Source of the DNA: Kangiella marina
Lineage (GTDB): Bacteria > Pseudomonadota > Gammaproteobacteria > Enterobacterales > Kangiellaceae
Reading direction: 5' to 3'
DNA length: 64,000 nucleotides
Assembly: GCF_039541235.1 (NCBI RefSeq)
Contig: NZ_BAABFV010000001.1
Location: 1,116,001-1,180,000, forward strand
Below the pieces are notes generated by a model. It was not told the origin of the DNA, searched no databases, and saw only the letters and a list, made by a program, of their open reading frames with translations. Position 1 is the stretch's first letter; the number at the start of each line of letters is the position of its first letter. Shown in pieces: positions 26,193-39,317 of this stretch. The position numbers and the translations under genes are program-made.

Positions 26193-26285
26193 GCCTTAGA
26201 AAATCACTTGTATTCAGTAAAACAAGTCTCTATTGTACCGTTTTTAAGGTAAAATAACTGCAATTCTCACTATTAAGTTCATCAA

Positions 26286-26597
26286 ATGTCTCAATCTAAG
26301 CAAACACCATTAAGTAAGTCACAGATTAAATTCCTTCGCAGTAAGGCGCACAACCTCAAGCCCGTTGTTATGATTGGCGATAAAGGTTTAACCGAGAATG
26401 TGCTGGACGAAATCAACCTAGCGCTTAACCACCACGAGCTGATCAAAGTTAAGGTCCGCGCAGAAGAGCGTGAGGACAAAAAAACCATTATCGACGCCAT
26501 CTGCAAAAAAACCAATGGTCAACAAGTTCAAGTGATTGGTCACATTTTAGTCTTGTACCGACGCTCTGATGATGTAAAAATCATCTTACCGAAATAA
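26286..26597 (+). CDS. yhbY: YhbY-type CRM-domain RNA-binding protein
   Basis: A 103-aa single CRM domain, with the conserved MIGDKGLTENVLDEINLALNHHELIKVKV (GxxG loop) and a short N-terminal basic stretch. Family members associate with pre-50S ribosomal subunits. Divergent from rlmE, the conserved neighbour. The response-regulator gene starts 16 nt further on in the same direction and may be co-transcribed. Confidence 0.92.
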   Translation: MSQSKQTPLSKSQIKFLRSKAHNLKPVVMIGDKGLTENVLDEINLALNHHELIKVKVRAEEREDKKTIIDAICKKTNGQQVQVIGHILVLYRRSDDVKIILPK

Positions 26598-26613
26598 TTA
26601 CCAAGGTATCTCA

Positions 26614-27309
26614 ATGGCTTATAGCGTCCTGCTGGTAGAAGATCATGCTGAGTTAGCGGCCACAACTGGCGAGTTTCTTGAGCTTTGTGGCTATATTGTC
26701 GATTATGCGAGCGATGGCCCATCTGGCCTCAACTTGGCTTTAAGCAATAGTTATGACGCTTTGATTCTTGATGTGATGCTGCCCGGCTTTGATGGGTATG
26801 AAATCTGCCGCAAAGTTCGTCAAGAAGCCGAGTCGGATATCCCCGTACTGATGTTAACGGCGAGAGATCAGCTAACAGACAAGCTTGAAGGCTTCGATAC
26901 TGGCGCCGACGACTACCTGATCAAACCGTTTGACTTCGAAGAGTTAGATGCTCGACTTAAGTCGATTATTAAGCGACACAAGGGTGACTTTAGCAGTAAA
27001 ACCATGGTTATTCATGACCTTGAGCTGGATCCAAAAACGATGAAAGTGACGCGCGCCGGTACCGAGCTTAAGCTGTCACCAACAGGGTTGCAGATTCTAA
27101 AAATGCTTATGCGCCGCTCGCCTGAACTGGTCAGTCGTGAAGACATTGAGCGTGAGCTGTGGGGCGACTTGGTTCCTGATAGCGATGTTTTAAGAAGCCA
27201 CCTGTATAACTTAAGAAAAGTGATTGATAAGCCCTTCGATACAGCACTACTAGAGACGGTTCCTAGTTTAGGGCTCAAGATCGTGCCGCCAAAAGCATCG
27301 GAAGATTAA
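26614..27309 (+). CDS. OmpR/PhoB-family response regulator
   Basis: A 231-aa DNA-binding response regulator. The receiver domain has E9-D10, the phospho-acceptor D53 (LILDVMLPG), T82 (MLTARD) and K104 (YLIKPF). A winged-helix output domain follows from about residue 130 (LKLSPTGLQILKMLMRRSPELVSREDIERELWGD, then SDVLRSHLYNLRKVID). Its stop interlocks with that of the histidine kinase on the other strand (27306-27309), so the pair is convergent rather than in the usual tandem. The kinase is the last gene of the lipid-modification operon, which suggests this regulator controls that operon. Confidence 0.92.
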   Translation: MAYSVLLVEDHAELAATTGEFLELCGYIVDYASDGPSGLNLALSNSYDALILDVMLPGFDGYEICRKVRQEAESDIPVLMLTARDQLTDKLEGFDTGADDYLIKPFDFEELDARLKSIIKRHKGDFSSKTMVIHDLELDPKTMKVTRAGTELKLSPTGLQILKMLMRRSPELVSREDIERELWGDLVPDSDVLRSHLYNLRKVIDKPFDTALLETVPSLGLKIVPPKASED

Positions 27310-28595
27310 CGTTCGGGGATGGTTAAAGTCGCTTTTGTACCTTCGCCTCGCTTACTTTCAATCCCCAACTTCCAGTCCATCTGCTCACATATTCGATACA
27401 CGATCGACAGGCCAAGACCAAACCCTTTCACTTTAACGTCTTCCCGGTTTTCTCGATAAAAAGGCTCGTGCACTCGCTTGAGTGCCGCGGGATGAATTCC
27501 ACAACCGCTATCTTCGACAATGATCGCTCGATTCTGGATAGATACACGAATATGGCCTTTTTCCGTATAATTGAAGGCATTACTGATTAAGTTGTTAATA
27601 CAAATACACAACAACCGCTCAGGCACTTTTTCCATCAAGGTGTCTCGGAAGTTTTTGAGCACCTCAATACCTTTATCAGCGTTTATTTTTTCAATCTGAA
27701 AAAGTTGCTCAGCCACTAAATCATTAATTGAAATGGGGTAATCGCTTTCCTCCGGTGTTTGGTCACGCGACAGAAGGAGTAAAGCTTCTAGCAATTCTTC
27801 CATCTCTTTAACCATAGGCCGCATACGATTCAATACCGCCTGCTGCCTTGGCTCAAGATCTTGCCGCTCGAGCAGAGCCAATGAACCTTTGAGTACTGCT
27901 AGCGGTGTTCTCAATTCGTGGCTAGCATAGCGAGTAAAATTCTTTTCGCGATCCACATACTCTTCAACTTTTCGTGCATACTGCTTAAAAGCATTGAGTA
28001 ACACCCCGACTTCAGCATCAGCATTATGCTCAATATCCGAAAAATCAATTTCAAAACCATCGTCACCATCCACATTTTCCATCTTGCGAGATAGTTTGAT
28101 CACGGGTGAAACGGCGCGCTTCGCCATGTAATAACTGATCCAGGCCGGTAAATAAATAATCAGAAGGACTAATGCTAATGGAGTGATACCGAAAAACAGT
28201 GCCAGCTTGGCAACCTGTCCTTCTTCAAACACTAAATAGAGTTTTCTCCCATAGCGCTCAGAAATATGAATCAGCGGTCTTTTTTCTCGTGTTTCTAAAC
28301 GCTGGTACCCTACAGGTAATTTCGCAATATCTTCAGGAACAGTTTCAGAGTGCGGGCTTCTTTCCATATACCCGGTGAGGTTTAGTGTTCTTGGTAGGTT
28401 GCTTTTAGGGTTGTTTTTATAATGCTCCCAGTAAAATTCAGCCTCACCTTCCAGAGCCTGTTTAATAAGAACCTTTTCAACAACTTTTGCAGCACCATAG
28501 ACACTCAGCAAAGTCACACCGCTGATCAAAACGAGCTGTATAAGCATCGCTCTAATCAGCTTGTGGTGAATTTTCTTTTGCTTATTTTTTGCCAT
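27306..28595 (-). CDS. Sensor histidine kinase at the end of the lipid-modification operon
   Basis: A 429-aa inner-membrane kinase. Membrane helices at about 14-37 and 131-155 flank a ~90-residue periplasmic sensor region without a recognisable domain. An HAMP-like linker leads to the H-box FTRYASHELRTPL with His226. The ATPase part has N-box NNLISNAFNYTE, G1 VEDSGCGI and G2 GFGLGLSIV. It starts 6 nt after the stop of the CFA-like methyltransferase gene, so it belongs to that transcript. No receiver or HPt domain. Partner: the convergent response regulator at 26614. Confidence 0.92.
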   Translation of the reverse strand: MAKNKQKKIHHKLIRAMLIQLVLISGVTLLSVYGAAKVVEKVLIKQALEGEAEFYWEHYKNNPKSNLPRTLNLTGYMERSPHSETVPEDIAKLPVGYQRLETREKRPLIHISERYGRKLYLVFEEGQVAKLALFFGITPLALVLLIIYLPAWISYYMAKRAVSPVIKLSRKMENVDGDDGFEIDFSDIEHNADAEVGVLLNAFKQYARKVEEYVDREKNFTRYASHELRTPLAVLKGSLALLERQDLEPRQQAVLNRMRPMVKEMEELLEALLLLSRDQTPEESDYPISINDLVAEQLFQIEKINADKGIEVLKNFRDTLMEKVPERLLCICINNLISNAFNYTEKGHIRVSIQNRAIIVEDSGCGIHPAALKRVHEPFYRENREDVKVKGFGLGLSIVYRICEQMDWKLGIESKRGEGTKATLTIPER

Positions 28596-28601
28596 CTTTT
28601 G

Positions 28602-29639
28602 CTACTTTGACTTTACGAACCGGTAGTGCCCTATCAACCACTCATTACCGTTGTTTAAACCAAACAACTCCGCGCATGACATAAAGAAAATACGCCAGCG
28701 CTGTAACCATATTTTGGCCTCTTTCTCACCATACACCTTTTCAAATACTGATAAAATAGTTTCTTTGTTCTTATCGGTGTTCTCCAACCAAGCATTGGAG
28801 GTCTTTTCGTAATGTTCACCGCTGAGTAACCATCGTTTATCTAACCTTAGGTCACCCAAGAAATTTAAAAATGTATCAGCCGCTGGCATTTGCCCGCCGC
28901 TAAAAAAATATTTCCCCATCCAGTTATCATCACCCTCTTCTTCAAATGGGTACATCAAAAAACGGTGACAAAAAATGTGAATAAAGATTTTACCGTCATC
29001 TTTTAACCACTGATTCATGCGATCAAATAACTGCTGATAATTTCTGACGTGTTCAAACATTTCAATTGAGACGATTCGGTCAAACGATTGCTCCGTTTTG
29101 AAGGTATTAATATCAACCGTTATGACCTCAATGTTGGTTAGACCGCGCTCAGAGGCTTTGCTTTCAATAAACTCTCTTTGCGAGCTTGAGTTTGATAATG
29201 TCGTGATGTGACTGTTTGGATATTTTTGGGCCAAATAAAGCGTTAGAGAACCCCAGCCACAACCTAATTCCAACACCTTCTGACCATCTTGGAATTCACC
29301 ACGTTCGGTGTAGAGTTCCAGCATATTCTTTTCAGCCGCTGATAAGTCTGTTGTATGCTTATCCCACAGACAGCCGCTGTATTTTAAATACTGCCCCAGA
29401 GATAGCTGGTAAAATTCGGCAGGAACTTCGTAGTGTTGCTCATTCGCTTTGTCTGTTTTGATAGCAATGTCGCTGCTTTTAAGCTCTTCTAAAAAGCGAT
29501 CATACTGTTCACTTTGTGCTTCAATATCATTGATATGTTCTTCTTCAAGTCGTTGCTTACAAAGCTTTCGAATGCCAGCACGAATCACCGAATCAGGCAG
29601 TGTTCCTGCCTCCATCATATTAATAATTGACTTAATCAA
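28602..29639 (-). CDS. CFA-synthase-like SAM methyltransferase
   Basis: A 345-aa methyltransferase of the cyclopropane-fatty-acyl-phospholipid synthase superfamily, in the subgroup resembling coclaurine N-methyltransferase. It starts ...AGTLPDSVIRAGIRKLCKQRL, typical of that subgroup, and has HYEVPAEFYQLSLGQYLKYSGC, the SAM motif VLELGCGWGS (122-131), SIEMFEHVRNY and HIFCHRF. It lacks the extra N-terminal lipid-binding domain of true CFA synthase. The start is TTG, with AGGAG 8 nt upstream. Substrate is unknown; by context an unsaturated phospholipid acyl chain is likely. UfaM of furan fatty-acid synthesis belongs to the same broad superfamily. Confidence 0.85.
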   Translation of the reverse strand: MIKSIINMMEAGTLPDSVIRAGIRKLCKQRLEEEHINDIEAQSEQYDRFLEELKSSDIAIKTDKANEQHYEVPAEFYQLSLGQYLKYSGCLWDKHTTDLSAAEKNMLELYTERGEFQDGQKVLELGCGWGSLTLYLAQKYPNSHITTLSNSSSQREFIESKASERGLTNIEVITVDINTFKTEQSFDRIVSIEMFEHVRNYQQLFDRMNQWLKDDGKIFIHIFCHRFLMYPFEEEGDDNWMGKYFFSGGQMPAADTFLNFLGDLRLDKRWLLSGEHYEKTSNAWLENTDKNKETILSVFEKVYGEKEAKIWLQRWRIFFMSCAELFGLNNGNEWLIGHYRFVKSK

Positions 29640-29654
29640 GTTACTGCTCCTAAT

Positions 29655-30434
29655 TTATTCGCTTTTGGTAGGACCAAGAAAAAATTTATTGGTATGTTGC
29701 TGATACTTACGATAAGCCTCGCCTTTTGAGCGAAGGTTTTGCTGTTCATTAAAAGGAATCCCTGTCAGCTTTAATAAAAACAACAGCATGACAAAAGGAT
29801 AAGCCCACATTAACCAGGCTAGCTCAGAGCCAATCAATAATAATGGATAAGCAAACCAGTGAGTCCATTCAAAAAAGTAGTTAGGGTGTCGTGAGTAACG
29901 CCACAATCCAACATTACAGACAGTTTCGTCTTTTGATGAATTCTTTTTAAACTGCCTTAATTGTTTATCTGAAATCCAGACTCCCAGATATGAAGCAGCG
30001 GCAATTCCCAGACCCAGTAAGTCCCAAACAGAGAGTTCTCTCACTTCGTTTGCAAGCACCCACGCAGGGAAGCTGAATAAGCTGATGATCAGACCTTGTC
30101 CAACAAAAAATAGTAAGAATTTAACTTGAGTATTGTCTTCCCAGTGACGTCTTAAGTACGCGTAACGGCCATCTTCTTTTGAAAGGTCGTAACGCTCAGT
30201 TAAATGGTAAAAAAGCCTAAGGTACCAGGCGATGGGAATCGCGAGAACCACTAAACGGTGGAATAAATCGCCATCTGATAGAAATAGTATAATCAATCCA
30301 TTAACCACGATCATGCCTGACCAAATAACATCCGCGATATCGGCATGCTGATGTTTCTTCTGCCATAGCCACCCAAATAGCTGCGTCACTAAGTTGATGA
30401 TAAGCAAGGACAGTAATAACTTAGTATCGAACAT
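29655..30434 (-). CDS. DUF1295 membrane protein (steroid 5-alpha-reductase-like)
   Basis: A 259-aa polytopic membrane protein with about six hydrophobic helices. The C-terminal region GLWRYSRHPNYFFEWTHWFAYPLL...LLKLTGIPFNEQQNLRSKGEAYRKYQQHTNKF is the hallmark of DUF1295 and isoprenylcysteine-methyltransferase/steroid-reductase folds, which bind NADPH or SAM at that end. The internal ATG 30434 gives a proper N-terminus; the longer frame to 30476 is unlikely. Next to a CFA-like methyltransferase, a role reducing a modified acyl chain is plausible but unproven. Confidence 0.8.
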   Translation of the reverse strand: MFDTKLLLSLLIINLVTQLFGWLWQKKHQHADIADVIWSGMIVVNGLIILFLSDGDLFHRLVVLAIPIAWYLRLFYHLTERYDLSKEDGRYAYLRRHWEDNTQVKFLLFFVGQGLIISLFSFPAWVLANEVRELSVWDLLGLGIAAASYLGVWISDKQLRQFKKNSSKDETVCNVGLWRYSRHPNYFFEWTHWFAYPLLLIGSELAWLMWAYPFVMLLFLLKLTGIPFNEQQNLRSKGEAYRKYQQHTNKFFLGPTKSE

Positions 30435-30981
30435 CCGCAGTCCATGATTTTTCTGCTTGCGCCTGTCGCTGCACAAGAATGGTCAAGAAGAAAGCGATCG
30501 CAAACCAGGCAACAGCCATCAAACTAAAGGTTAACCAAGGCTGATTGATTACCACGGCGCCAATTCTAGCTGCCCCGAAGTAAGAGACAGGACCACCGAT
30601 GCCCGCTAGAACTCCGGCGAGATAAGGGCTCTTCTGAATCCAGCCTAAGGAGTGGTTAAAGCTAGCACCAAACGCCACCCACATTGCGATAATCCACCAA
30701 GGCGCAATATTTTTTGCCGGCCAATGCTCAGCGTATTCAATAAGGCCAAAGAAAGACCAAATGGTGGCGACGATGAAACCGCACGTAGCACTCGCTCCAA
30801 TAATCAAAAAGTCATTCTCATTTCTGCGTGACGGCCACAGTTGCCAAACAAGCATAGCAACCAAGAGCGTAGCCCCAACCCAGATATAGCCTTTTGTAGA
30901 ACCCAGCACAAAGCCCAGCCAAACTAACTGAAATAACACAAAGTTAACGATATTGTTGGTATTTAGTGTTGTGCTAGCCAT
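30421..30981 (-). CDS. DUF2878 inner-membrane protein
   Basis: A 186-aa protein with five to six hydrophobic helices and the family signature FNHSLGWIQKSPYLAGVLAGIGGPVSYFGAARIGAV. DUF2878 proteins typically sit beside CFA synthase and DUF1365 genes; their function is unknown. It overlaps the CFA gene by 19 nt and the DUF1295 gene by 14 nt. Confidence 0.8.
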   Translation of the reverse strand: MASTTLNTNNIVNFVLFQLVWLGFVLGSTKGYIWVGATLLVAMLVWQLWPSRRNENDFLIIGASATCGFIVATIWSFFGLIEYAEHWPAKNIAPWWIIAMWVAFGASFNHSLGWIQKSPYLAGVLAGIGGPVSYFGAARIGAVVINQPWLTFSLMAVAWFAIAFFLTILVQRQAQAEKSWTADVRY

Positions 30982-32246
30982 TGGTCTCTCTTGTTGCCTG
31001 GTTTAGCAAATAATAAGTGCGTGTCACTAATTGATTTCTCGATAAAGCCACCTTCGCAATAGCAAAAGTAGAACTCCCACATACGGGTGAACGCTTCGCT
31101 ATAGCCCTGCGCTTTAATGGTTTCAATATTTTCCATAAAACGATGACGCCAGTGCTCGAGCGTTTTAGCATAACTTTCACCAAAATCTTCGAGGTTAATC
31201 AGTCGCAAATCCGTTTTTTCACCAGCACTAGAAACAATCGCTGACACACATGGAATAAAGCTACCTGGGAAGATATAACGCTTAATGAAATCGACCGACT
31301 TTAAAGCTTGCTTGTACCGACGGTCCTCAATCGTTATCGCTTGAATCAACGCCAAACCGTTAGGTTTTAGTAAAGTGCTGCATTGCTTAATGTAAGTGTC
31401 CAAATAATGGTGGCCTACTGCCTCAATCATTTCGATTGACACCAACTTGTCAAAACGTCCTTCTAAGTCCCGGTAATCCTTTTTAAGCAAGGTGACTTTA
31501 TCTTCTAAGCCTTCTTCTAATATTCGTTTTTGAGCAAACTGGTATTGTTGCTCTGAAATCGTGGTCGTGGTGACATGACACCCATAGTGCTTCGCCGCAT
31601 AAATTGCCATTCCGCCCCAGCCGGTACCAATCTCGATTACATTATCGGTCGACTGAAGATCCAACTTTTCACAAATAGTTTTTAACTTTCGTTCGGAAGC
31701 TTGTTCTAAAGTGTCGTTAGGCTCGGCAAAGATTGCTGACGAGTACATCATGTGGGTATCTAGAAACAACTCAAAAAAGTCATTGCCCAGATCATAGTGC
31801 GCAGAAATATTATTTTTACTGCCGGACACACTATTCTTGTTAAAATAATGCCACACTTTTAAAACACTATTCTTCAGCCAAGCAAGACCACCTTCCATCT
31901 CATCCAGTAACTCGATATTTCTGACCAGTAACTGAACTAAGCCAGTTAAATTATCCACATCCCATTTCTGATCAATAAATGCCTGTGCGGCACCGTTACT
32001 CCCTTCGAGGGCCACAAGGCGATAAAAATCAATATCTCTAATTGTCAGTGCCAGCGCTAAGTCGCTTTGTGCATCTCCACAAACATAGGTTTCTATCGGA
32101 TCAGTCACCGTAATAGAGCCATTTTTTAACCGGCTCAATGTGTCTTTAACCTGATTACGGATCACACGAATCATTCCGCGATTTGCTAAAATAGGCTTTG
32201 CATGCGCACAACTCTGTTGCTCTTCAACGCGTGAGTTTTGTGACAT
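30963..32246 (-). CDS. cfa: Cyclopropane-fatty-acyl-phospholipid synthase
   Basis: Adds a methylene from SAM across acyl-chain double bonds of membrane phospholipids. The 427-aa protein has the N-terminal lipid-binding domain (to about residue 130), then ISAHYDLGNDFFELFLD (148-164), YSSAIF, the SAM motif VIEIGTGWGG (203-212), SIEMIEAVGHHYLDTYI and the C-terminal EFYFCYCEGGF that includes an active-site cysteine. GGAGACAAT precedes the ATG. It is the central gene of the eight-gene lipid operon. Confidence 0.93.
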   Translation of the reverse strand: MSQNSRVEEQQSCAHAKPILANRGMIRVIRNQVKDTLSRLKNGSITVTDPIETYVCGDAQSDLALALTIRDIDFYRLVALEGSNGAAQAFIDQKWDVDNLTGLVQLLVRNIELLDEMEGGLAWLKNSVLKVWHYFNKNSVSGSKNNISAHYDLGNDFFELFLDTHMMYSSAIFAEPNDTLEQASERKLKTICEKLDLQSTDNVIEIGTGWGGMAIYAAKHYGCHVTTTTISEQQYQFAQKRILEEGLEDKVTLLKKDYRDLEGRFDKLVSIEMIEAVGHHYLDTYIKQCSTLLKPNGLALIQAITIEDRRYKQALKSVDFIKRYIFPGSFIPCVSAIVSSAGEKTDLRLINLEDFGESYAKTLEHWRHRFMENIETIKAQGYSEAFTRMWEFYFCYCEGGFIEKSISDTHLLFAKPGNKRDQWLAQH

Positions 32247-32254
32247 ATTGTCTC

Positions 32255-33055
32255 CTAAGAATTACTATGTTTTGGGTGGTCAAATACTTTTAGGCGCTTC
32301 AACCACAACTTTAATGCTTGCCAGTAAATTAACAAACTCATCTTGTGGGGTTGAAAAGCATGACTAAAAGCAAACTTTCTCATACTTCTTTTAGTTAATG
32401 GTAATAAGGTTCCTGTGAAGGTAGCGTCAAAGTACTTTTTTCCCTCTGTCGTCAGTACTGACATATGCACCCTTAAGTGCTCTTTTCGCACGGTGAAGGT
32501 CCAGCGGTAAAGCATATCCATTTGAATAAAAGGTGAGACATGAAACTCTTTATTAAAGCTAAATTGATATACGCCTTGCTTACTCACCTGATTATCGGCA
32601 TCGCAGTTAAAGACATAGCTGTGACGCTCTCCCCAAGGCGTATTAGTGATTTCACTCACTAAAAAGACCAGCTGCTCATTCTGGTCAAAACAGTAATAAA
32701 AACACACAGAGTTAAAGTTGTATCCGTAGTTCCTTAAATGCGACAGCATATAGATTTTGCCATCAAAATTCTCACCCGTGCGTTTTTTTATGGTCTCAAT
32801 AAGGCGTAACTTGTTAAGGCTCGGGTTATCGCTTTCTACGGGCTGATTGTCACTGCCGATATGAAAATCGCCCGCTCTATATGACACGATATTTTTTTTA
32901 CCGACTGACCACAGTTTGCTGCACTTGAATTGTTGCTCAACCTCATCGAGATCAAGCAAGGTCCAATCCATGTCATAATCAAACTGGTGTGGTTTTGGCT
33001 GATACCGACGATGCCTAACCCAACCTTTTACCAGACTATTTTTCAGCATAGCCAT
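32255..33055 (-). CDS. DUF1365 family protein
   Basis: A 266-aa protein of DUF1365 (KGWVRHRRYQPKPHQFDYDMDWTLLDLDE, then LSHLRNYGYNFNSVCFYYCFD, and FNKEFHVSPFIQMDMLYRWTF). The family is always found with an FAD amine-oxidase-like gene and a CFA synthase; no biochemical role is established. It overlaps the FAD gene by 20 nt. ATG 33049 is an alternative start. Confidence 0.85.
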   Translation of the reverse strand: MAMLKNSLVKGWVRHRRYQPKPHQFDYDMDWTLLDLDEVEQQFKCSKLWSVGKKNIVSYRAGDFHIGSDNQPVESDNPSLNKLRLIETIKKRTGENFDGKIYMLSHLRNYGYNFNSVCFYYCFDQNEQLVFLVSEITNTPWGERHSYVFNCDADNQVSKQGVYQFSFNKEFHVSPFIQMDMLYRWTFTVRKEHLRVHMSVLTTEGKKYFDATFTGTLLPLTKRSMRKFAFSHAFQPHKMSLLIYWQALKLWLKRLKVFDHPKHSNS

Positions 33056-34295
33056 TGTCAGATAATAATTGCTGAGCAGCTTCTAATCCACTTCGGGCAC
33101 CATCTTCATGAAAGCCCCATCCCCAATAAGCACCACAATAATAGGTAGACTTTTGACCTTGCAACTTGCTTCGCTCTTTTTGCGCTGAGATGGTTTCGAT
33201 GGTGTAAATTGGATGATCATACTCTAGGTATTTCCATACTTTACTCTTATCAACCAGCTCGTTCATATTTAAACTCACCACCACTGGCTGCTTTGTGGGC
33301 AGTGATTGCAGCAGGTTCATACAATAACTGACCGTACATTGCTCTTTACTGGCTTCATTGCGTATAACATTCCAGCTGGCCCAAGCCGCCTTGCGCTTCG
33401 GAAGTAAAGCTTCATCCCAATGCAGACAGATATCATTCTTCTGATACTTTATCGCACCAAGAATTCGTTCTTCATCTGCTGTTGGTTTTTCGACTAAGGA
33501 TAGTGCTTGATCACTGTGGCATGCGAAAATAACGTTGTCGAAGTGCTCTTCCTCACCTCCTGCCATTGTCAACGTTACGGTGTCTTCTGTGCGGACGACT
33601 TTTTGAATAGAGCTGTTTAAGCGGACGTCAAAGTTTGCTTTTTCAGTAATGGCTGAAAGATAGCGCTTTGAGCCACCCGTGATTGTTTTCCATACAGGTC
33701 TATCATTAATCTGCATCATATTATGATTTTGCATAAAGGCGACGAGATAGCGCGCTGGGAAGTCCATGATCAGATCAGCCTTTCCAGACCATAGCGCTGA
33801 TGCCATTGGAATAATGTGTTCATCAATAAAGTATTCGCTGTAGCCGTTTTGCCTCAAGTAATCGCCAAGAGGAATCTCCGCTGCATTATCATCGAGTAAT
33901 GCTCTGGCTTCCTTATAAAATCGCTGGATATCCCTAATCATTCGATAGAACTTTGGGTTCAGCAGGTTTTTACGCTGGCAAAACAGCTTATTCAGATTCG
34001 TTGCATTGTACTCTAGGCCGCTAAAGCGATTGGATACAGCGAAGCTCATATCGCTATCCTGATAATCAACCTGATACTTTTTCAATAACTGATAAAATCT
34101 AGGGTAGTTGTCGGGATTAAAAACAATAAACCCCGTATCCACATCAATGAGCTGACCGCCGACATCAATGGTTTGGGTATCAGCATGCCCACCAACTCTA
34201 GTGTCTTTCTCAAAAACAGTCACTTCACACGAATCACACAAATACTCTGCTGCTGAAATACCGGATATTCCAGAGCCAATAACCGCAACCTTCAA
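33036..34295 (-). CDS. FAD-dependent amine-oxidase-like oxidoreductase
   Basis: A 419-aa flavoprotein of COG2907. The N-terminal dinucleotide motif is VIGSGISGISAAEYL, followed by VFEKDTRVGGHADTQTIDVGG. The C-terminus YYCGAYWGWGFHEDGARSGLEAAQQLL closes the FAD site. The start is TTG, overlapping the desaturase stop (TTGA), with AGGAG upstream, so translation is coupled. Relatives co-occur with DUF1365 and CFA synthase and probably oxidise an acyl chain; the substrate is unknown. Confidence 0.87.
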   Translation of the reverse strand: MKVAVIGSGISGISAAEYLCDSCEVTVFEKDTRVGGHADTQTIDVGGQLIDVDTGFIVFNPDNYPRFYQLLKKYQVDYQDSDMSFAVSNRFSGLEYNATNLNKLFCQRKNLLNPKFYRMIRDIQRFYKEARALLDDNAAEIPLGDYLRQNGYSEYFIDEHIIPMASALWSGKADLIMDFPARYLVAFMQNHNMMQINDRPVWKTITGGSKRYLSAITEKANFDVRLNSSIQKVVRTEDTVTLTMAGGEEEHFDNVIFACHSDQALSLVEKPTADEERILGAIKYQKNDICLHWDEALLPKRKAAWASWNVIRNEASKEQCTVSYCMNLLQSLPTKQPVVVSLNMNELVDKSKVWKYLEYDHPIYTIETISAQKERSKLQGQKSTYYCGAYWGWGFHEDGARSGLEAAQQLLSDNGYAEK

Positions 34296-35179
34296 ACTCT
34301 TTGCTCCTGTACCTTTGTCACTTCAGGCTTTCTCAAGTCCCAAATCAAGCCCAGCTTTTCCATGCCTAACAACAAGTAGTAACTGATATCCAGCTCCCAC
34401 CACCGTAGCCCCTGTTTTACAGAGCCTGGAAATTTATGGTGATTATTGTGCCACCCCTCTCCAAGAGTCAGTAACGCCAATAATGGATTATTACGGCTGT
34501 CATCATCGGTTTCAAAACTTTGATAGCCCCAGCGATGAGCTAAAGAGTTAATAAGGAAGGTCACATGTGACAACACGATGGTTGAGACAAAGAATCCCCA
34601 TATCAAAATTTGCCACTTCGTCGCGCCAAGCTCTGGGTGTACGTGCTCAATGTAAGTCCCTACCATTAAAATTAAGAAAGCATATAAGATAGGCGGCAGA
34701 ATGTCGTAACGGTCAATCCATTTAAGCTCTTCATACTTAGCGAGATCTTTCACTCTGTCTTCGTTAGTCGGAAAGTTCTTTTTGGTTAAAAACCATAGCG
34801 TATGACTGCGCAAAAACCCGTGACGCGGTGAATGAGTATCTTCGTCGGTGTCAGCATGCTTATGATGGTGGCGATGGTGTGCAGCCCACCACAACGGGCC
34901 TCGTTGTGTCGCCGTGGCACCGATAAAGCCAAATATGGCCTGCACTACTCGGCTGGTTTTAAAGCTCTTGTGAGAAAAATAGCGATGATAAAAGGCTGTA
35001 ATTGCAAACATCCTAATAAAATAACTGACCGCAAAAACTACAATCGCAATCCAGCTCACGCCGACTACAAAGACGAATAAGCAAGTGAGATGCAATAGAA
35101 TATAAGGGATGACCCGCGGCCAATCGACCACATCTTCACCCAAACTGCCTACTGCTGTATTGTCAAACCACTGTTTCAA
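34292..35179 (-). CDS. Membrane fatty-acid (acyl-CoA type) delta-9-like desaturase
   Basis: A 295-aa integral-membrane di-iron desaturase with the three histidine boxes HRYFSH (65-70), HHRHHH (101-106) and HNNHH (244-248), and four membrane helices. It resembles stearoyl-CoA/DesC-type enzymes that insert a cis double bond. First gene of the operon, so it could create the double bond that the downstream methyltransferases modify. Its promoter lies in the 133-nt divergent gap shared with the NTF2-like gene. Confidence 0.92.
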   Translation of the reverse strand: MKQWFDNTAVGSLGEDVVDWPRVIPYILLHLTCLFVFVVGVSWIAIVVFAVSYFIRMFAITAFYHRYFSHKSFKTSRVVQAIFGFIGATATQRGPLWWAAHHRHHHKHADTDEDTHSPRHGFLRSHTLWFLTKKNFPTNEDRVKDLAKYEELKWIDRYDILPPILYAFLILMVGTYIEHVHPELGATKWQILIWGFFVSTIVLSHVTFLINSLAHRWGYQSFETDDDSRNNPLLALLTLGEGWHNNHHKFPGSVKQGLRWWELDISYYLLLGMEKLGLIWDLRKPEVTKVQEQRV

Positions 35180-35225
35180 TGGAATCTTCCTCGATAGATA
35201 ATACCGCCAGATTAAGTCCTTTATC

Positions 35226-35289
35226 GTGAATATCCTGTGAACCTGCTATTCACAAATATTTGACGTGCTTAGCATTATTCTCTTATAAC
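35226..35289 (+). promoter_or_regulatory. Promoter with upstream inverted repeat, lipid-locus divergent gap
   Basis: TTGACG (35260-35265) and TTATAA (35283-35288) are 17 nt apart, a good sigma-70-type promoter reading into the NTF2-like gene. Just upstream, GTGAATA (35226-35232) and TATTCAC (35247-35253) are a perfect inverted repeat with a 14-nt spacer, placed where an activator such as the adjacent OmpR-type regulator could bind and serve both directions. Confidence 0.55.
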
Positions 35290-35312
35290 ATCATAAAGCA
35301 GGTACTGACACA

Positions 35313-35876
35313 ATGAAGCTTTTAAAACTGATTATTGCCTTAACCTTGAGTCTGGCCATTATTTGTTGTTCATCAGGAGGAGAGCGTATGTACAACGAAC
35401 GTGTAGAAGATTTTTTAACGATCATTAAGACCATACCTTCTACCAGCTCACACCCTGATCCAGCACAGCATTTTGCAGTTGTTTTTGAAGATTTCCACCT
35501 GGATGCCAATGAAAGTAACATTCGTGAAGTGTATGCTGAAGAGTTTTACTTTAATGACACTTTCAAAACCTTCCGCAGCATCGACGAATTAATTCCTTAT
35601 ATGGAAGAAACGGTTGAAAATGTCAAAACCACAACGGTCGAAATACTTGACGTCAGCAAGAGTGACACCGATTACTACTTGCGCTGGAAAATGGTCATGG
35701 AATTTACCGCCAAAGGTCGCGAGATCCATTCAGTATCAATTGGCATGACGCAGCTACGTTTTAACGAACAAGGAAAAATCATCCTACATCAAGACTACTG
35801 GGATGGTGCTGAAGGTTTTTATCAACACTTACCCTACATTGGATACTTTGTTCGAAAAGTTCGGAGCAGTCTGTAA
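35313..35876 (+). CDS. NTF2/SnoaL-like exported protein
   Basis: A 187-aa protein with a signal peptide; 'LAIICC' near residue 18 might be an atypical lipobox. The mature part resembles the cone-shaped NTF2/SnoaL fold (VEDFLTIIKTI..., VYAEEFYFNDTFKTFRSIDELIPYMEETV, and QDYWDGAEGFYQHLPYIGYFVRKV). Genes of this type accompany CFA/FAD/DUF1365 clusters and photolyase in other proteobacteria. It is translationally linked to the next gene (TAATG). Confidence 0.75.
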   Translation: MKLLKLIIALTLSLAIICCSSGGERMYNERVEDFLTIIKTIPSTSSHPDPAQHFAVVFEDFHLDANESNIREVYAEEFYFNDTFKTFRSIDELIPYMEETVENVKTTTVEILDVSKSDTDYYLRWKMVMEFTAKGREIHSVSIGMTQLRFNEQGKIILHQDYWDGAEGFYQHLPYIGYFVRKVRSSL

Positions 35877-36415
35877 TGAAAATGCTGATCGGTGCTCTAG
35901 CCTTAAGCCTGATGAGCGCCACAGCTCATACCAATCAATTACCTCAGACAATTTCACACAGCAAAGGTGAGTTTCAGCTGTGCGATAAAGAGCGCGTCTC
36001 AAAACTATGGTTTGATATTGTGGATGTCGGTATTTATTACCCTAGCTGCGATACCGTTCAGCACATTTTCGATAATCAAACCAAGTTATTACGTTTTGCT
36101 TACCTAAGAGAGGTAGAGGGCCAGCAGTTTACAAAGGGCGCCATCGAATACCTTGAACAAAACCTCAATCCACAAGAGTTAGAATACTGTAGCGAACACT
36201 TTTCACCGCTTAATCATGTCTACAAAGACGTTACTGAAGGGGATTACTACGATCTGTATTTATTCGAAGATGAAGGTTTGACATTGTATCTAAACGGTAA
36301 ACATCTTCACGACATGCCAAGTAAGGAGTGTCACACTCCCTACCTTAACGTTTGGTTTGGTGAAGAAACCATGGATAGCCAATTTCATGATTTATCAAAG
36401 CGTCTTAAGCGTTAG
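35876..36415 (+). CDS. Chalcone-isomerase-like exported protein
   Basis: A 179-aa protein with a signal peptide (MKMLIGALALSLMSATAHT). The mature part (GEFQLCDKERVSKLWFDIVDVGIYYPSCDT, then LRFAYLREVEGQQFTKGAIEYL and LTLYLNGKHLHDM) matches the bacterial chalcone-isomerase-like domain (PF16036), a fold that in some relatives binds fatty acids. True chalcone isomerase activity is not expected. Its stop overlaps that of the convergent photolyase. Confidence 0.8.
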   Translation: MKMLIGALALSLMSATAHTNQLPQTISHSKGEFQLCDKERVSKLWFDIVDVGIYYPSCDTVQHIFDNQTKLLRFAYLREVEGQQFTKGAIEYLEQNLNPQELEYCSEHFSPLNHVYKDVTEGDYYDLYLFEDEGLTLYLNGKHLHDMPSKECHTPYLNVWFGEETMDSQFHDLSKRLKR

Positions 36416-37788
36416 CCAAGCAACTCTAACGCTCTTTTACGCGACTCTTTATAATTAATAATTGGCTCAGGATACCCTGTTTTTTCTCTTTGCTCGCTAG
36501 AGGGGTTATGAATCGATTTTTTATCCAGATCTTTTAATTCGGGAACTAACTTTCGAATAAAATCCCCATCTGGATCAAACCTCTCAGACTGGGATAAGGG
36601 ACTCATGATTCTAAAATAGGGAGCGCCGTCAGCACCGGTTGAAGAACACCACTGCCAACCGCCATTATTTGAAGCAAAGTCACCATCTATTAGCGACTCC
36701 ATGAAATACTTTTCTCCCCAACGCCAATCGACTAAGCATAGTTTATTAAGGAACATTGCGGCATTCATGCGCAGACGGTTATGCATCCAGCCAGTCTGAT
36801 TAAGCTGCCTCATCGCCGCATCAATAATAGGAAAACCTGTTTTGCCTTCTTTCCACGCTTCAAAAGCCTCTTGGTTGTCCGCCCAGACCTCTGCAGCGTC
36901 AGGATTAAAAGGCTTATGCTTGGTCAGCTCAGGATTATCAATTAACACCTGCCGGTAAAATTCTCTCCACACAAGTTCTGAAAACCAAGTATCACCGTAC
37001 AGCTTTTCTTCATCACCGTCGTAGTACTCCAATAACGCATGCATGCACTGCTTTGCTGATATCGCTCCGATGGCTAAATATGGTGACAAGCAACTGGTAC
37101 CAGAGACTGAAGGAATATCTCGTGTCTTCTTATACGACTCGACCTTACTCAAAAACTTATCCAGCCTTTCGTAGGCAGCACTTTCTCCAGCAGGCCATAA
37201 GTCCTCCCGATACTCTGCCGGAAAGTCTTCTGTCGCTTGCTCTTTGATCGAGTATGACTGCTTTTCAGGTGGCTTTAGTGGCTCGAAAGGCGACTGTTTA
37301 TGAACGTTAATCCAAGCTTTCTTATAAGGTGTAAAAACCTTGTAGGGATCACCCTGTTTATTTTTGACAAGATTTGGCTCTAAGGCAAGATCACCATCAA
37401 ATCGATTGACCTCAACATTCATACCCTCAAGGACGCTTTTTAATGTCGCATCCCGCTCTAGTTCATTAATTGGATATTCATTGTTGAAGTAAACGGCACT
37501 AATACCATTATCATCGACAAAGGCTTTTATTGTCTCAATTTGATCATCAAAATAATCACAACACTGAATATGAAGCGGAATATTAAGTTCGTTAAGTGCC
37601 GCTCTCAGCTCCAGCAGAGAGTCATAAATCAGCCCCACTTTTGCTGACGATTCGTGATGTTGTTTTCGTTGCTTTTGCGCCTCGACAAAGATTGCAACCA
37701 CCTCACCATCCAATGCAGCCTGATGCAATGCAGGATTATCGTTTACTCGCAAGTCTTGTCGAAACCAGATTAATGTTTTGCTCGCCAT
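36412..37788 (-). CDS. phrB: Deoxyribodipyrimidine photolyase
   Basis: Light-driven repair of cyclobutane pyrimidine dimers with FAD and a folate antenna. At 458 aa it is class I length. It starts ASKTLIWFRQDLRVNDNPAL, has NNEYPINELERDA in the antenna domain, and the FAD-binding helices LSPYLAIGAISAKQCM, WFSELVWREFYRQVL, GFPIIDAAMRQLNQTGWMHNRLRM and GGWQWCSSTGADGAPYFRIMSP. It shares one base with the ybgA stop, a conserved pair in E. coli as well. Confidence 0.95.
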   Translation of the reverse strand: MASKTLIWFRQDLRVNDNPALHQAALDGEVVAIFVEAQKQRKQHHESSAKVGLIYDSLLELRAALNELNIPLHIQCCDYFDDQIETIKAFVDDNGISAVYFNNEYPINELERDATLKSVLEGMNVEVNRFDGDLALEPNLVKNKQGDPYKVFTPYKKAWINVHKQSPFEPLKPPEKQSYSIKEQATEDFPAEYREDLWPAGESAAYERLDKFLSKVESYKKTRDIPSVSGTSCLSPYLAIGAISAKQCMHALLEYYDGDEEKLYGDTWFSELVWREFYRQVLIDNPELTKHKPFNPDAAEVWADNQEAFEAWKEGKTGFPIIDAAMRQLNQTGWMHNRLRMNAAMFLNKLCLVDWRWGEKYFMESLIDGDFASNNGGWQWCSSTGADGAPYFRIMSPLSQSERFDPDGDFIRKLVPELKDLDKKSIHNPSSEQREKTGYPEPIINYKESRKRALELLG

Positions 37789-38741
37789 TAAATATAATTC
37801 CTTAGCCCTAACTCCACTGGATGTGGATTTAAATAAGCTTGCTGAGCGATATATTCATTGCCATACTGCTTGATGTAATGATTAATCAGAGTAATAGGAG
37901 CAATCAGAGTGACGATCCCTGTTCGATATTGCTCTATGACATGGATCAACTCCTGCTTTGCCGTTGGATTCAAATCTTCTTTTAGATAGCCCAGTATGTG
38001 GTACAAGACATTACTGTGGGACTTTGCATTAGCCAGTTTTTTCAAGGTGCTCATTAATGCCTGTTCGTATTTATTTATCAACAAGGTTAACGAGTTACCA
38101 TCATTATTCGCGACTAACCGTCCTAACGTTTTATAGTCATCGTAACTGTGTGCCATCACTAAATACTTATATCGACTGTGAAATTTCACCAAAGCATCGA
38201 CCGATGGAGCAGACCTTACACTCTTCTTAAAGTCCTCATATGCAAAAACACGCGTGATGAAGTTTTCACGTAACTTGGCATCCTGTAACCGTCCTTCTTC
38301 CTCAACCGGCAACTCCGGTCTCGCTTTCATTATTTCATTAATATAAATCCCACGATCTGACTTCCCCGCAGGGTTACCATTCTCGTGATACACCTTCACC
38401 CTCTCCATGCCACAACTTGGCGAGTTTCGGATAACAATATAACCACTAATCTGATCAATCTCCGACAGTTTTTCATGGGCAAAAGCCTTTAACTCATCGG
38501 TCATATCCTCCGAGTGGTCATCGACCTGAACAACTCGTATTTGATCCCCCTTCTCCATCAAGTGGATCGGTGGTCTTGGCGCAGGCATTCCTATCCCCAT
38601 TTCAGGACAAATAGGCTGATACTCAAACCAATCACTCAAAGTGTTTAAGCAGTACTTCGACTGTTTATGGCCACCGTCGAACCGGACTTTATTTCCAAGT
38701 AAACAGGAGCTTATCGCTATCGGTATTTTTTTCATGTCCAT
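37788..38741 (-). CDS. ybgA: YbgA family protein (DUF523 + DUF1722)
   Basis: A 317-aa fusion. The N-terminal DUF523 domain has ISSCLLGNKVRFDGGHK, CPEMGIGMPAPRPPIHL and RNSPSCG; its cysteines suggest a bound metal or cluster. The C-terminal DUF1722 (YbgA) region has KFHSRYKYLVMAHSYDDYKTLGRL. E. coli ybgA also precedes phr, and the full fusion is common next to photolyase genes; function is unknown. AAGGTATAAAAT precedes the ATG. Confidence 0.9.
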   Translation of the reverse strand: MDMKKIPIAISSCLLGNKVRFDGGHKQSKYCLNTLSDWFEYQPICPEMGIGMPAPRPPIHLMEKGDQIRVVQVDDHSEDMTDELKAFAHEKLSEIDQISGYIVIRNSPSCGMERVKVYHENGNPAGKSDRGIYINEIMKARPELPVEEEGRLQDAKLRENFITRVFAYEDFKKSVRSAPSVDALVKFHSRYKYLVMAHSYDDYKTLGRLVANNDGNSLTLLINKYEQALMSTLKKLANAKSHSNVLYHILGYLKEDLNPTAKQELIHVIEQYRTGIVTLIAPITLINHYIKQYGNEYIAQQAYLNPHPVELGLRNYI

Positions 38742-38790
38742 ATTTTATACCTTTTCCGTGAATATAATGTAAATCTAAACTCAAAATAAA

Positions 38791-38812
38791 AAAGGCTCCC
38801 AAAGGAGCCTTT
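38791..38812 (-). terminator. Terminator after greA
   Basis: AAAGGCTCC and GGAGCCTTT pair perfectly around a 4-nt loop, followed on the minus strand by T residues and TTATTTT. It closes the carA-carB-greA unit. Confidence 0.9.
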
Positions 38813-38834
38813 CTCTACAACATCAACAGTAGAA

Positions 38835-39317
38835 TTAGATATAAAGCACTTCTGCTACTTCATACTCCACTTTACCGCCTGGCGTTTGAATGTCTGCAAT
38901 ATCACCCTCTTCCTTGCCGATAAGGCCACGAGCGATAGGCGAGTTGATCGACAGTTTATTTTGCTTGATATCAGCTTCATCATCACCAACGATCTGGTAA
39001 CGAACTTCTGTATCTTTACCATCTTCCAAGTTAATTAAAACCACTGTCGAGCCAAAAATGATCTTACCCGTATTACTGATTTTCGTGATATCAACAATCT
39101 GAGAGTTCGAGAGTTTCGCTTCAATTTCTTGAATTCTTCCCTCGATAAACCCTTGTTGCTCACGAGCAGCGTGATATTCGGCATTCTCTTTCAAGTCACC
39201 GTGCTCACGAGCTTCAGCAATAGCAGCGACCACTTTTGGACGCTGCACTTTTTTTAGATCATTCAACTCTTCCTGCAGCTGTTCTGCGCCAGCTGCAGTC
39301 ATCGGAACTCTATTCAT
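38835..39317 (-). CDS. greA: Transcription elongation factor GreA
   Basis: Rescues backtracked RNA polymerase by stimulating transcript cleavage. The 160-aa protein has the N-terminal coiled coil with the acidic tip ([30 protein letters not shown]) and the C-terminal FKBP-like domain ([20 protein letters not shown]). Its ATG overlaps the carB TGA (ATGA), so it is coupled to carB, a common gammaproteobacterial order. Confidence 0.97.

Follow-up and report, generated by a model that had tools for sequence, protein, structure and literature searches.

A probable furan fatty acid operon in Kangiella marina and its candidate two-component control through a TTCAC-N6-TTCAC box

Within the window, by which we mean the whole 64,000-nucleotide stretch of Kangiella marina DNA that was analysed, eight open reading frames lie on the minus strand from position 35179 down to 27306, in the order given by an earlier sequence-only reading. 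The first gene, Des (34292..35179), encodes a membrane fatty acid desaturase (PF00487) and overlaps by 4 nt the gene for a UfaD-type FAD oxidoreductase (33036..34295; PF01593), which itself overlaps by 20 nt that of a UfaO-type DUF1365 protein (32255..33055; PF07103). After a gap of 8 nt follows UfaM (30963..32246), a UfaM-type SAM-dependent fatty acyl methyltransferase (CMAS), which shares 19 nt with the gene for a DUF2878 protein (30421..30981; Pfam). The overlap of the latter with the gene for a DUF1295 membrane enzyme (29655..30476) amounts to 56 nt when the longest-ORF start is used, and the start of DUF1295 is likely later. The operon continues across 15 nt to MT2 (28602..29639), a methyltransferase of the coclaurine-N-methyltransferase/FufM type by Pfam and profile matches, and across 6 nt to HK (27306..28595), a membrane sensor histidine kinase with HisKA and HATPase_c domains and a short periplasmic loop.

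This arrangement confirms the eight-gene operon proposed earlier: four of the seven junctions overlap, no gap exceeds the 15 nt before MT2, and the Pfam families are those that had been named. Of 19 Kangiella relatives, 18 retain the gene order, and in the nineteenth (G003) the contig stops inside UfaM. Given this retention, the operon is not a product of chance, and it is real. Internal promoters and terminators had been named as features that could split it; a consensus scan of positions 26200-39000 gave no excess of either promoter-like sites (17 against 26.1 expected) or terminator-like sites (9 against 10.2 expected), a scan that neither proves nor excludes internal ones.

The view of a lipid-modification operon ending in its own kinase is supported, and HK is adjoined by a partner that was absent from the earlier gene list. 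This partner, RR (26614..27309, plus strand), is an OmpR-type response regulator that begins 16 nt downstream of a yhbY-like ORF and converges with HK, the two stops overlapping by 4 nt. Beyond Des, a divergent operon on the plus strand comprises a SnoaL/NTF2-like protein (35313..35876; ORF list and Pfam) and a chalcone isomerase-like protein, ChaI (35876..36415; PF16036). It is followed on the minus strand by a DNA photolyase (36412..37788; PF00875, PF03441) and a DUF523 (2-thiouracil desulfurase-like)-DUF1722 protein (37788..38741), judged by position to be cotranscribed with the photolyase.

Three operon genes match UfaD, UfaO and UfaM in family and in contiguous order. UfaO matches PF07103 at 233.8 bits, against a cut-off of 25, and UfaD was assigned by family (PF01593, 81.3 bits) and by its position against UfaO. 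UfaD has been described as an NAD/FAD-binding, phytoene-dehydrogenase-like protein and UfaO as containing DUF1365, to which furan formation has been linked (PMC7380195). UfaM matches PF02353 and reaches 272 and 271 bits with NCBIfam CFA synthase models whose curated cut-offs are 400 and 600, respectively. Since the trio of FAD, DUF1365 and CFA genes matches the furan fatty acid pathway (PMC7380195), cyclopropanation by a CFA synthase, as suggested earlier, is not the likely chemistry; as the main reaction we disfavour it because UfaM falls under the CFA cut-offs and sits with UfaD and UfaO. Judging by these families, the likely role of the operon genes is to convert fatty acids of the membrane into furan lipids (FuFA), a lipid class linked to protection against damage by light.

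The second methyltransferase, previously taken as CFA-like, is rather of the coclaurine NMT/FufM type. MT2 matches coclaurine NMT at E 4.6e-80 over nearly its full length, far more strongly than its best CFA synthase match (2.1e-24). It is 28% identical to UfaM of the window; the literature value for FufM against UfaM is 26%. A plant protein with 38% identity to FufM has been reported, and AT4G33110 has been named as a FufM relative (PMC10940516); the family of MT2 seems to contain FufM. The DUF1295 model (pLDDT 93) suggests a 5-alpha/sterol-reductase-like fold, and its nearest structures by Foldseek are sterol and 5-alpha reductases: 4quv (E 2.5e-3), 7bw1 (8.3e-3) and 7c83 (1.6e-2), at probability 1.00 and TM ~0.5, with none below 1e-3; the match to ICMT has an E of 0.14. 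The Pfam Steroid_dh model is matched at 34.1 bits (cut-off 22.6). In the proposed pathway, Des would provide or tune unsaturated acyl chains, UfaM would methylate phospholipid acyl chains at their double bond, UfaD would desaturate that product, and UfaO would insert oxygen derived from O2, with a methyl-furan fatty acid as the result. The second ring methyl would probably come from the FufM-type MT2, and DUF1295 would probably act on an acyl intermediate by reducing one of its C=C bonds.

HK (PF00512, PF02518) and RR (PF00072, PF00486) share their domains, a HisKA/HATPase_c kinase with a receiver and Trans_reg_C regulator, with OmpR/PhoB-type systems, and among the best 25 NCBIfam models none reaches its cut-off for either protein. 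The motif SHELRTP is invariant in 15 aligned HK sequences. The pair stands at the operon in all 18 Kangiella relatives with a complete locus, G003 (L034), with its contig cut inside UfaM, being out of this count. Across lineages the pair and the operon occur in several arrangements: at the operon end, upstream, convergent or unlinked. The HK model shows two long helices with a short loop between them, and because its quality is moderate (pLDDT 76, pTM 0.49) and the sensor model has no Foldseek match at E <=1e-3, we draw no inference about a ligand. That HK senses the membrane state resulting from the operon's activity, as had been put forward, is possible.

A direct repeat, TTCAC-N6-TTCAC, lies ahead of the operon as the putative RR box TTCACAGGATATTCAC (35226..35241, minus strand), 46 bp upstream of the Des start. 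Direct repeats with an 11-bp period are a general pattern of OmpR/PhoB-type regulators. Two further operons of the island carry a putative RR box: TTCACAAATATTTGAC (35249..35264, plus strand; motif match) precedes NTF2-ChaI, and TTTACATTATATTCAC (38758..38773, minus strand) lies 16 bp ahead of the DUF523/DUF1722-photolyase operon. By eye, the second half-site of TTCACAAATATTTGAC could belong to a -35 element (TTGACG, 18 nt, TATAAC).

The box ahead of Des is perfect in 20 of 20 Kangiella loci, and no other block of an anchored alignment of 18 rows is conserved at 95%. One locus (L039) failed the first box scan, its Des start being called too far upstream, and shows a perfect box in the anchored alignment. 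The NTF2-facing box retains 9 of 10 letters in 20/20 Kangiella, and the DUF523-photolyase box is present in all 20 (17 perfect, three with 9/10 letters); the NTF2 start is called upstream of the box at L037 and L047, and the DUF523 start likewise at eight loci. Perfect boxes are no commoner genome-wide than a reversed control (5 against 8 in K. marina; 88 against 84 across 13 genomes), and a lone site that does not lie in a conserved promoter therefore carries little weight. Where boxes recurred inside a coding frame that is itself conserved (L288, L301, L308), we put this down to conservation of the coding sequence and treated it as an artefact. Candidate unlinked targets recurring among the 13 Kangiella genomes are an SDR (in nine) and a DPRP photolyase (in five). 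We do not claim that the Kangiella SDR is the operon SDR of relatives: the Kangiella SDRs L281 and L282, used for this comparison in place of the SDR of K. marina itself, share no more than 20-28% identity with that operon SDR in alignments of 199-236 residues, besides one short piece of 43.

Outside Kangiella, the box precedes the first gene at 13 of the 18 loci with a linked HK and at 13 of the 138 others; it is absent there from L122, L159, L208, L209 and L212. After copies were collapsed, with L180 dropped as the same record as L091 and four Acinetobacter counted as one, it remains at 9/14 HK-linked loci (p 7e-6). L083 (K. taiwanensis) is the same genome as G001. Boxes facing NTF2 or ChaI occur at seven of ten HK loci outside Kangiella (all except L086, L122 and L190), and in Acinetobacter a perfect box precedes ntf2-chaI-rr in 4/4 cases.

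The box also foretold an HK encoded elsewhere in the genome, in 8/8 box-bearing genomes (all with an HK of >=220 bits) against 1/12 without a box. The 12 box-less loci were hand-chosen and comprise four without a local regulator, one of them with HK, and eight of ECF type (none at 200 bits, three at 172-179). Restricted to loci without any local regulator, the figures are 6/6 against 1/4 (p 0.03). Thirteen loci carry a box but have no local HK; for these, an unlinked HK was foretold in nine of 11 genomes, the other two loci being L034 (Kangiella) and L132 (outside the count); G107 has an unlinked HK, L178/G277 one of 177 bits only, and L198/G221 none at E 1e-12. Conversely, 14 of 18 unlinked HK loci have a box <=2.5 kb from HK, and in 9/16 it lies <=200 bp from the called RR start, compared with 1% in shuffles. 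Two loci (L088, L110) whose genomes combine box and unlinked HK also contain an ECF-like gene by HMM. In 15 of 16 cases HK lay in a genome with DUF1365 (p 9e-8), a link inflated because 11 of the 16 genomes fed sequences into the HK profile; among the other five, four have DUF1365 (p 0.02), and near-exclusivity of HK to DUF1365 genomes was thus weakened on recheck.

ChrR is the best-known route of singlet-oxygen sensing; there, FuFA-making proteins are described as needed for the signal, and an oxidised lipid has been proposed as messenger (PMC6852236). The sequence-only reading had seen no chrR in the window and had named a ChrR/ECF pair elsewhere as a possible controller. The absence of ChrR extends to the whole genome, with 0 matches to TIGR02451, which rejects ChrR elsewhere; on the ECF side, ten above-cut-off matches in the genome come from a sigma region-4 model, which lacks specificity for ECF factors. 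No MerR-type protein is found among the scanned proteins of 26614-38741. ChrR is above cut-off in 0/20 Kangiella (two with weak matches) and present in 21 of 24 other DUF1365-bearing members of the order. Of 20 HK genomes none had a match over the cut-off and nine had weaker matches, some of them being MAGs. Strict mutual exclusion looked clean in both samples, but G263 combines ChrR with an unlinked HK and the class-wide p is 0.67, so we do not claim it.

Gene content and order, the absence of ChrR, the linkage of HK-RR, and the conservation and predictive power of the box lead us to regard the Kangiella locus as probably a photo-oxidative-stress island in which HK-RR exerts two-component control of the FuFA operon and photolyases via the box. 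Phosphorylated RR would bind TTCAC-N6-TTCAC and switch on the FuFA operon, which would raise HK in a positive loop; it would also activate the NTF2-chalcone-isomerase and DUF523-photolyase operons and, elsewhere in the genome, the SDR and a DPRP/CryB-like photolyase. We infer that RR activates rather than represses its targets and that the system responds to light or singlet oxygen. A tentative extension, which we consider rather doubtful, is that HK reads directly the oxidised product left when singlet oxygen destroys a furan lipid in the membrane and then fires RR, the bait lipid being made by the same operon. One transcript would then hold the probe lipid, the probe-making enzymes and the reader, a 'chemical fuse' for photo-oxidation that would serve several gammaproteobacterial lineages where others have ChrR.

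Other readings of the locus place the signal or the regulator elsewhere. The genes could form a membrane-fluidity or envelope-stress operon that tunes acyl chains, with UfaM acting as a cyclopropane or methyl-branching synthase, HK sensing temperature, thickness or another envelope cue in a DesK-like manner, and FuFA and light being incidental. The desaturase at the head of the operon, the two long helices and short loop of HK, and the 272 bits of UfaM with a CFA synthase model agree with this; both UfaM scores are nevertheless under the cut-offs, furan formation is tied to DUF1365/UfaO (PMC7380195), and the same box stands ahead of DUF523-photolyase and, in 5/13 genomes, of a second photolyase, so we hold this reading to be unlikely. 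Equally improbable in our estimate is that the box is the site of a different OmpR-type regulator, or that a LitR/MerR repressor or an ECF factor elsewhere mainly runs the operon while HK-RR targets something else. It could draw on the sigma region-4 matches, on the LitR control of related operons elsewhere (PMC9758184) and on the few boxes without a strong HK, yet the box tracks HK-RR across lineages, linked or unlinked, and stands ahead of many unlinked rr-hk operons.

In the UfaM tree, Kangiella UfaM falls apart from the loci of its own family and joins four Methylococcaceae-type loci (98/98), of which two are HK-linked. On this placement we rejected the idea that Kangiella merely exchanged the regulator in place; the whole locus may instead have been exchanged as one block. 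Such a move may fit a passenger role of HK-RR, in which horizontal transfer brought the pair along with an operon that it does not regulate; we give this very little credence, as the association recurs in different arrangements and with a shared box.

The preferred reading, two-component control of FuFA genes and photolyases, finds parallels in known systems. The gene kinds of the locus are light- or singlet-oxygen-induced elsewhere (PMC9758184, PMC4067076, PMC6852236), and FuFA genes belong to the core of the ECF11 RpoE-ChrR singlet-oxygen regulon (PMC6852236); the earlier link to RpoE-ChrR target genes is borne out. Kangiella differs in having no ChrR, control appearing to run via HK-RR and the putative box. 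In Pseudomonas, MerR-type regulators with LOV proteins govern the LitR/PplR regulon, which includes light-inducible photolyase, UfaM and cryptochrome-like genes and whose region also encodes an SDR and a FAD enzyme (PMC9758184), whereas Kangiella has a two-component system. HK-RR would fill the role of RpoE-ChrR in Rhodobacter and of LitR in Pseudomonas, and probably adds to photo-oxidative FuFA control a two-component branch next to those two. Among three papers from a co-occurrence search of the literature, one of them on a Rhodobacter lipid mutant, titles and opening lines of abstracts show none on two-component control of FuFA genes. A membrane kinase in a FuFA operon, with a defined putative box and a small target set, would offer a second, testable route of singlet-oxygen sensing.

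The Ufa pathway of R. sphaeroides and R. palustris has the same FAD enzyme, DUF1365 protein and CMAS-family methylase, and in R. palustris their genes are contiguous in the same D-O-M order (RPA2571-2569; PMC7380195). In R. palustris, fufM (RPA0924) lies apart from RPA2569-2571, whereas Kangiella joins the trio in one operon with the desaturase, DUF2878, DUF1295, the histidine kinase and a second methyltransferase of the family seeming to hold FufM. In Chlamydomonas, the SAK1-dependent singlet-oxygen genes CFA1, CFA2/CPLD27 (coclaurine-NMT-like), DUF1365 and DUF1295 are co-induced (PMC4067076), in a eukaryote and under the unrelated regulator SAK1. The placement of DUF1295 and coclaurine-NMT-like enzymes in one bacterial transcript makes their lipid chemistry accessible to study; in plants, coclaurine-NMT-like methyltransferases are located on lipid droplets (PMC10940516).

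The locus on the minus strand (35179–27306 (−)) consists of eight consecutive ORFs, which overlap at four of seven junctions and leave a largest gap of 15 nt. In order, they encode an FA_desaturase family protein (Des), an FAD amine oxidase-like protein (UfaD), a DUF1365 protein (UfaO), a CMAS methyltransferase (UfaM), DUF2878 and DUF1295 proteins, a second CMAS-like methyltransferase (MT2) and a histidine kinase (HK). An OmpR-type response regulator gene (RR, 26614–27309 (+)) converges on HK. The upstream side is occupied by a divergent SnoaL/NTF2-like and chalcone isomerase-like operon (ntf2-chaI), followed by a DUF523/DUF1722 and DNA photolyase (phr) pair (−). The best-supported reading is a two-component branch controlling furan fatty acids (FuFA) and the photo-oxidative response.

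The enzyme content fits known FuFA chemistry. In the bacterial pathway, as excerpted from PMC7380195, UfaM is a SAM methylase, UfaD an NAD/FAD-binding, phytoene-dehydrogenase-like desaturase and UfaO a DUF1365 protein (M, O and D being R. palustris RPA2569–2571), while a second methylase, FufM, yields the dimethyl form; the window likewise has D, O and M contiguous. Its UfaM reaches 272 and 271 bits against two CFA synthase models with cut-offs of 400 and 600. MT2 matches coclaurine N-methyltransferase over residues 4–342 (E 4.6e-80), and CFA synthases far more weakly (E 2.1e-24). Excerpts of two further sources report 38% identity between plant LIME1 (AT4G33110) and FufM (PMC10940516), and that Chlamydomonas CPLD27, annotated as a coclaurine N-methyltransferase, is gene CFA2 of a singlet-oxygen set (PMC4067076). 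Taken together, these sequence relationships make MT2 a likely FufM. The closest solved relatives of MT2 (28602–29639) are plant alkaloid N-methyltransferases (coclaurine, pavine), matched over nearly the full length, which suggests that the alkaloid enzymes descend from lipid methyltransferases. The predicted DUF1295 structure is of high confidence (pLDDT 93.3); among solved structures it lies nearest to delta-14 sterol reductase and steroid 5-alpha-reductases (E 2.5e-3 to 1.6e-2, TM ~0.5), with a weaker match to the methyltransferase ICMT, and we infer that DUF1295 is a putative reductase.

DUF1365 occurs in 44 of 61 genomes of the relatives set, of which 20 are Kangiella (ours among them) and 24 are not. 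The order DUF523-phr-<chaI-<ntf2-Des-UfaD-UfaO-UfaM-DUF2878-DUF1295-MT2-HK-<RR (< for opposite orientation) is kept in our genome and 18 of 19 Kangiella relatives; in the 19th, the contig stops inside UfaM. All 24 non-Kangiella loci read NTF2-SDR-UfaD-UfaO-UfaM, frequently with DUF2878, and none contains DUF1295, MT2 or HK. ECF sigma factor and ChrR matches fall within the stretch read at 13 of the first 21 (L051–L071). ChrR, the anti-sigma factor of the RpoE–ChrR singlet-oxygen system (model TIGR02451), has no match anywhere in our genome (2.51 Mb, two contigs, completeness rating 100%). The model exceeds its cut-off in 21 of the 61 genomes, all among the 24 non-Kangiella genomes with DUF1365, and in 0/20 Kangiella (weak matches in two) and 0/17 genomes lacking DUF1365. 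In a class sample, ChrR was found in 9 of 223 genomes, all among the 69 with DUF1365. Outside Kangiella, none of 20 genomes in which the locus is HK-linked has ChrR above cut-off (weaker matches in nine). One genome, G263, encodes an unlinked HK alongside ChrR, and mutual exclusion within the 69 DUF1365 genomes is not significant (p 0.67).

Using HMMs built in this analysis, we scanned MT2 loci from named genomes (the best 80 of at least 579 confirmed), together with another 70 DUF1365 loci. A kinase gene sharing the HK sensor, usually accompanied by RR, occurs at such loci in HTCC5015, a Methylococcaceae MAG, an Alcanivoracaceae MAG, Wenzhouxiangella, Arenicellales, four Acinetobacter genomes and several additional lineages, in varying gene arrangements; two other Methylococcaceae-type loci lack HK. 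Among 176 loci with UfaD, a non-random sample of unequal locus lengths, HK is present at 38, ECF or ChrR at 44, neither at 94 and both at none. The HK-sensor profile scores at least 200 bits in 16 of the 223 class genomes, and DUF1365 occurs in 15 of these. That profile includes sequences from 11 of the 16; of the remaining five, four have DUF1365 (p 0.02). We built a tree of 74 UfaM proteins drawn from the 176 loci. In it, Kangiella clusters (98/98) with four Methylococcaceae-type loci, of which two are HK-linked and two are not, and is separate from the loci of its family. The HK label requires nine changes on this tree, at least six of them forced by well-supported branches. For Kangiella, replacement of the locus through transfer is a likelier history than exchange of just the regulator. 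Two Neomarinimicrobiota MAGs (L148, L156) carry UfaD-UfaO-UfaM-MT2 operons with desaturase-like and photolyase-like genes downstream, which suggests that photolyase-associated furan-type loci also exist beyond Proteobacteria.

A putative RR site, the direct repeat TTCAC-N6-TTCAC (TTCACAGGATATTCAC, 35226–35241 (−)), lies in the intergenic region before Des and is perfect at 20/20 Kangiella loci. In a box-anchored alignment, in which 18 of the 20 rows are full length, the sole block conserved at 95% is TTCACA-N5-TTCAC, joined at 80% by a few single columns. A second copy with one letter changed faces NTF2 in 20/20 Kangiella, and a third precedes DUF523-phr in 20/20 (17 perfect; one mismatch in the window and two others). 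A strong terminator-like stem (12 pairs, T tail; 38788–38815 (−)), between a greA-like ORF and the DUF523-photolyase operon, directly precedes the third box. The whole window holds five boxes with at most one mismatch against 6.3 expected; position therefore matters, not number, with three of the five at the three promoters. Outside Kangiella, a box of at least 9/10 letters precedes the first gene at 13 of 18 HK-linked loci (shuffles 2.8%), 4 of 44 ECF loci and 9 of 94 others; with copies collapsed, the comparison is 9/14 HK-linked versus 13/138 other loci (p 7e-6). Boxes also face NTF2 or ChaI at 7 of 10 such HK loci (perfect in L091, L177 and all four Acinetobacter, 9/10 letters in L154; absent at L086, L122 and L190). 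The Acinetobacter box lies at the promoter of an ntf2-chaI-rr operon, which played no part in defining the motif.

The box also predicts the kinase. All eight genomes with box-bearing loci lacking a local HK encode HK elsewhere (at least 220 bits), compared with 1 of 12 for loci without a box (a non-random choice; three others at 172–179 bits). For the loci that lack a local regulator of any kind, the counts are 6/6 and 1/4 (p 0.03). Class genomes searched earlier gave HK in G107, 177 bits in G277 and none in G221, and the box therefore predicts HK in 9 of 11. A box lies within 2.5 kb of HK at 14 of 18 unlinked HK loci, and within 200 bp of the RR start in 9 of the 16 with a called RR, in 14 of 35 non-Kangiella RR genes overall (shuffles 1%; one record counted twice) and in 4 of 20 Kangiella RR genes (shuffles 1.8%), where RR mostly lies behind yhbY.

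From gene content and related regulons, we infer that the signal is singlet oxygen and light. In Rhodobacter, excerpts of PMC6852236 state that FuFA-synthesis proteins are required for ChrR turnover and propose singlet-oxygen destruction of FuFA as the signal. As a membrane kinase encoded in the FuFA operon, HK would be a natural candidate for reading such a signal. Structural comparison of the HK-sensor model (pLDDT 76) returned no usable match. Literature listings, some from uninformative searches, yielded nothing on two-component control of FuFA genes.

Perfect boxes are not in excess genome-wide (5 versus 8 for the reversed control pattern in our genome; 88 versus 84 across 13 Kangiella genomes). 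Downstream genes were sought at 72 box loci, 16 of which had no fitting gene, and recurrence was scored for the box pattern alone. An SDR recurs as an unlinked target in nine Kangiella genomes, ours included, at a box-gene distance of 22–23 bp in seven; our copy (L165, C1:438079–438094) has a perfect box 23 bp upstream, and eight more genomes are alike. The operon SDR of relatives is absent from the Kangiella operon, and two box-linked SDRs tested are only 20–28% identical to it. A photolyase-related DPRP protein recurs in five Kangiella genomes, including our own, where a perfect box lies 53 bp upstream of this CryB-like gene (L163, C1:70229–70244; also L286, L295, L305 and L321). Kangiella's two photolyases, SDR and FuFA genes behind one box resemble the light-induced Pseudomonas genes excerpted from PMC9758184, namely PhrB, UfaM and CryB, with an SDR and an FAD enzyme in the same region. 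Weaker recurrent targets are a TonB-receptor-like protein (named by look) and a 131-aa protein in three genomes each, an azurin-like protein (Pfam) in two, and three more pairs; one recurrent triple sits within a coding frame. In our genome, a further perfect box (L164, C1:164122–164137) lies between a divergent pirin-like gene (named by eye) and another ORF, 211–215 bp from both starts, with no recurrence among the loci read. In two Kangiella species (L294, L312), the box stands 43 bp ahead of the azurin/plastocyanin-family gene.
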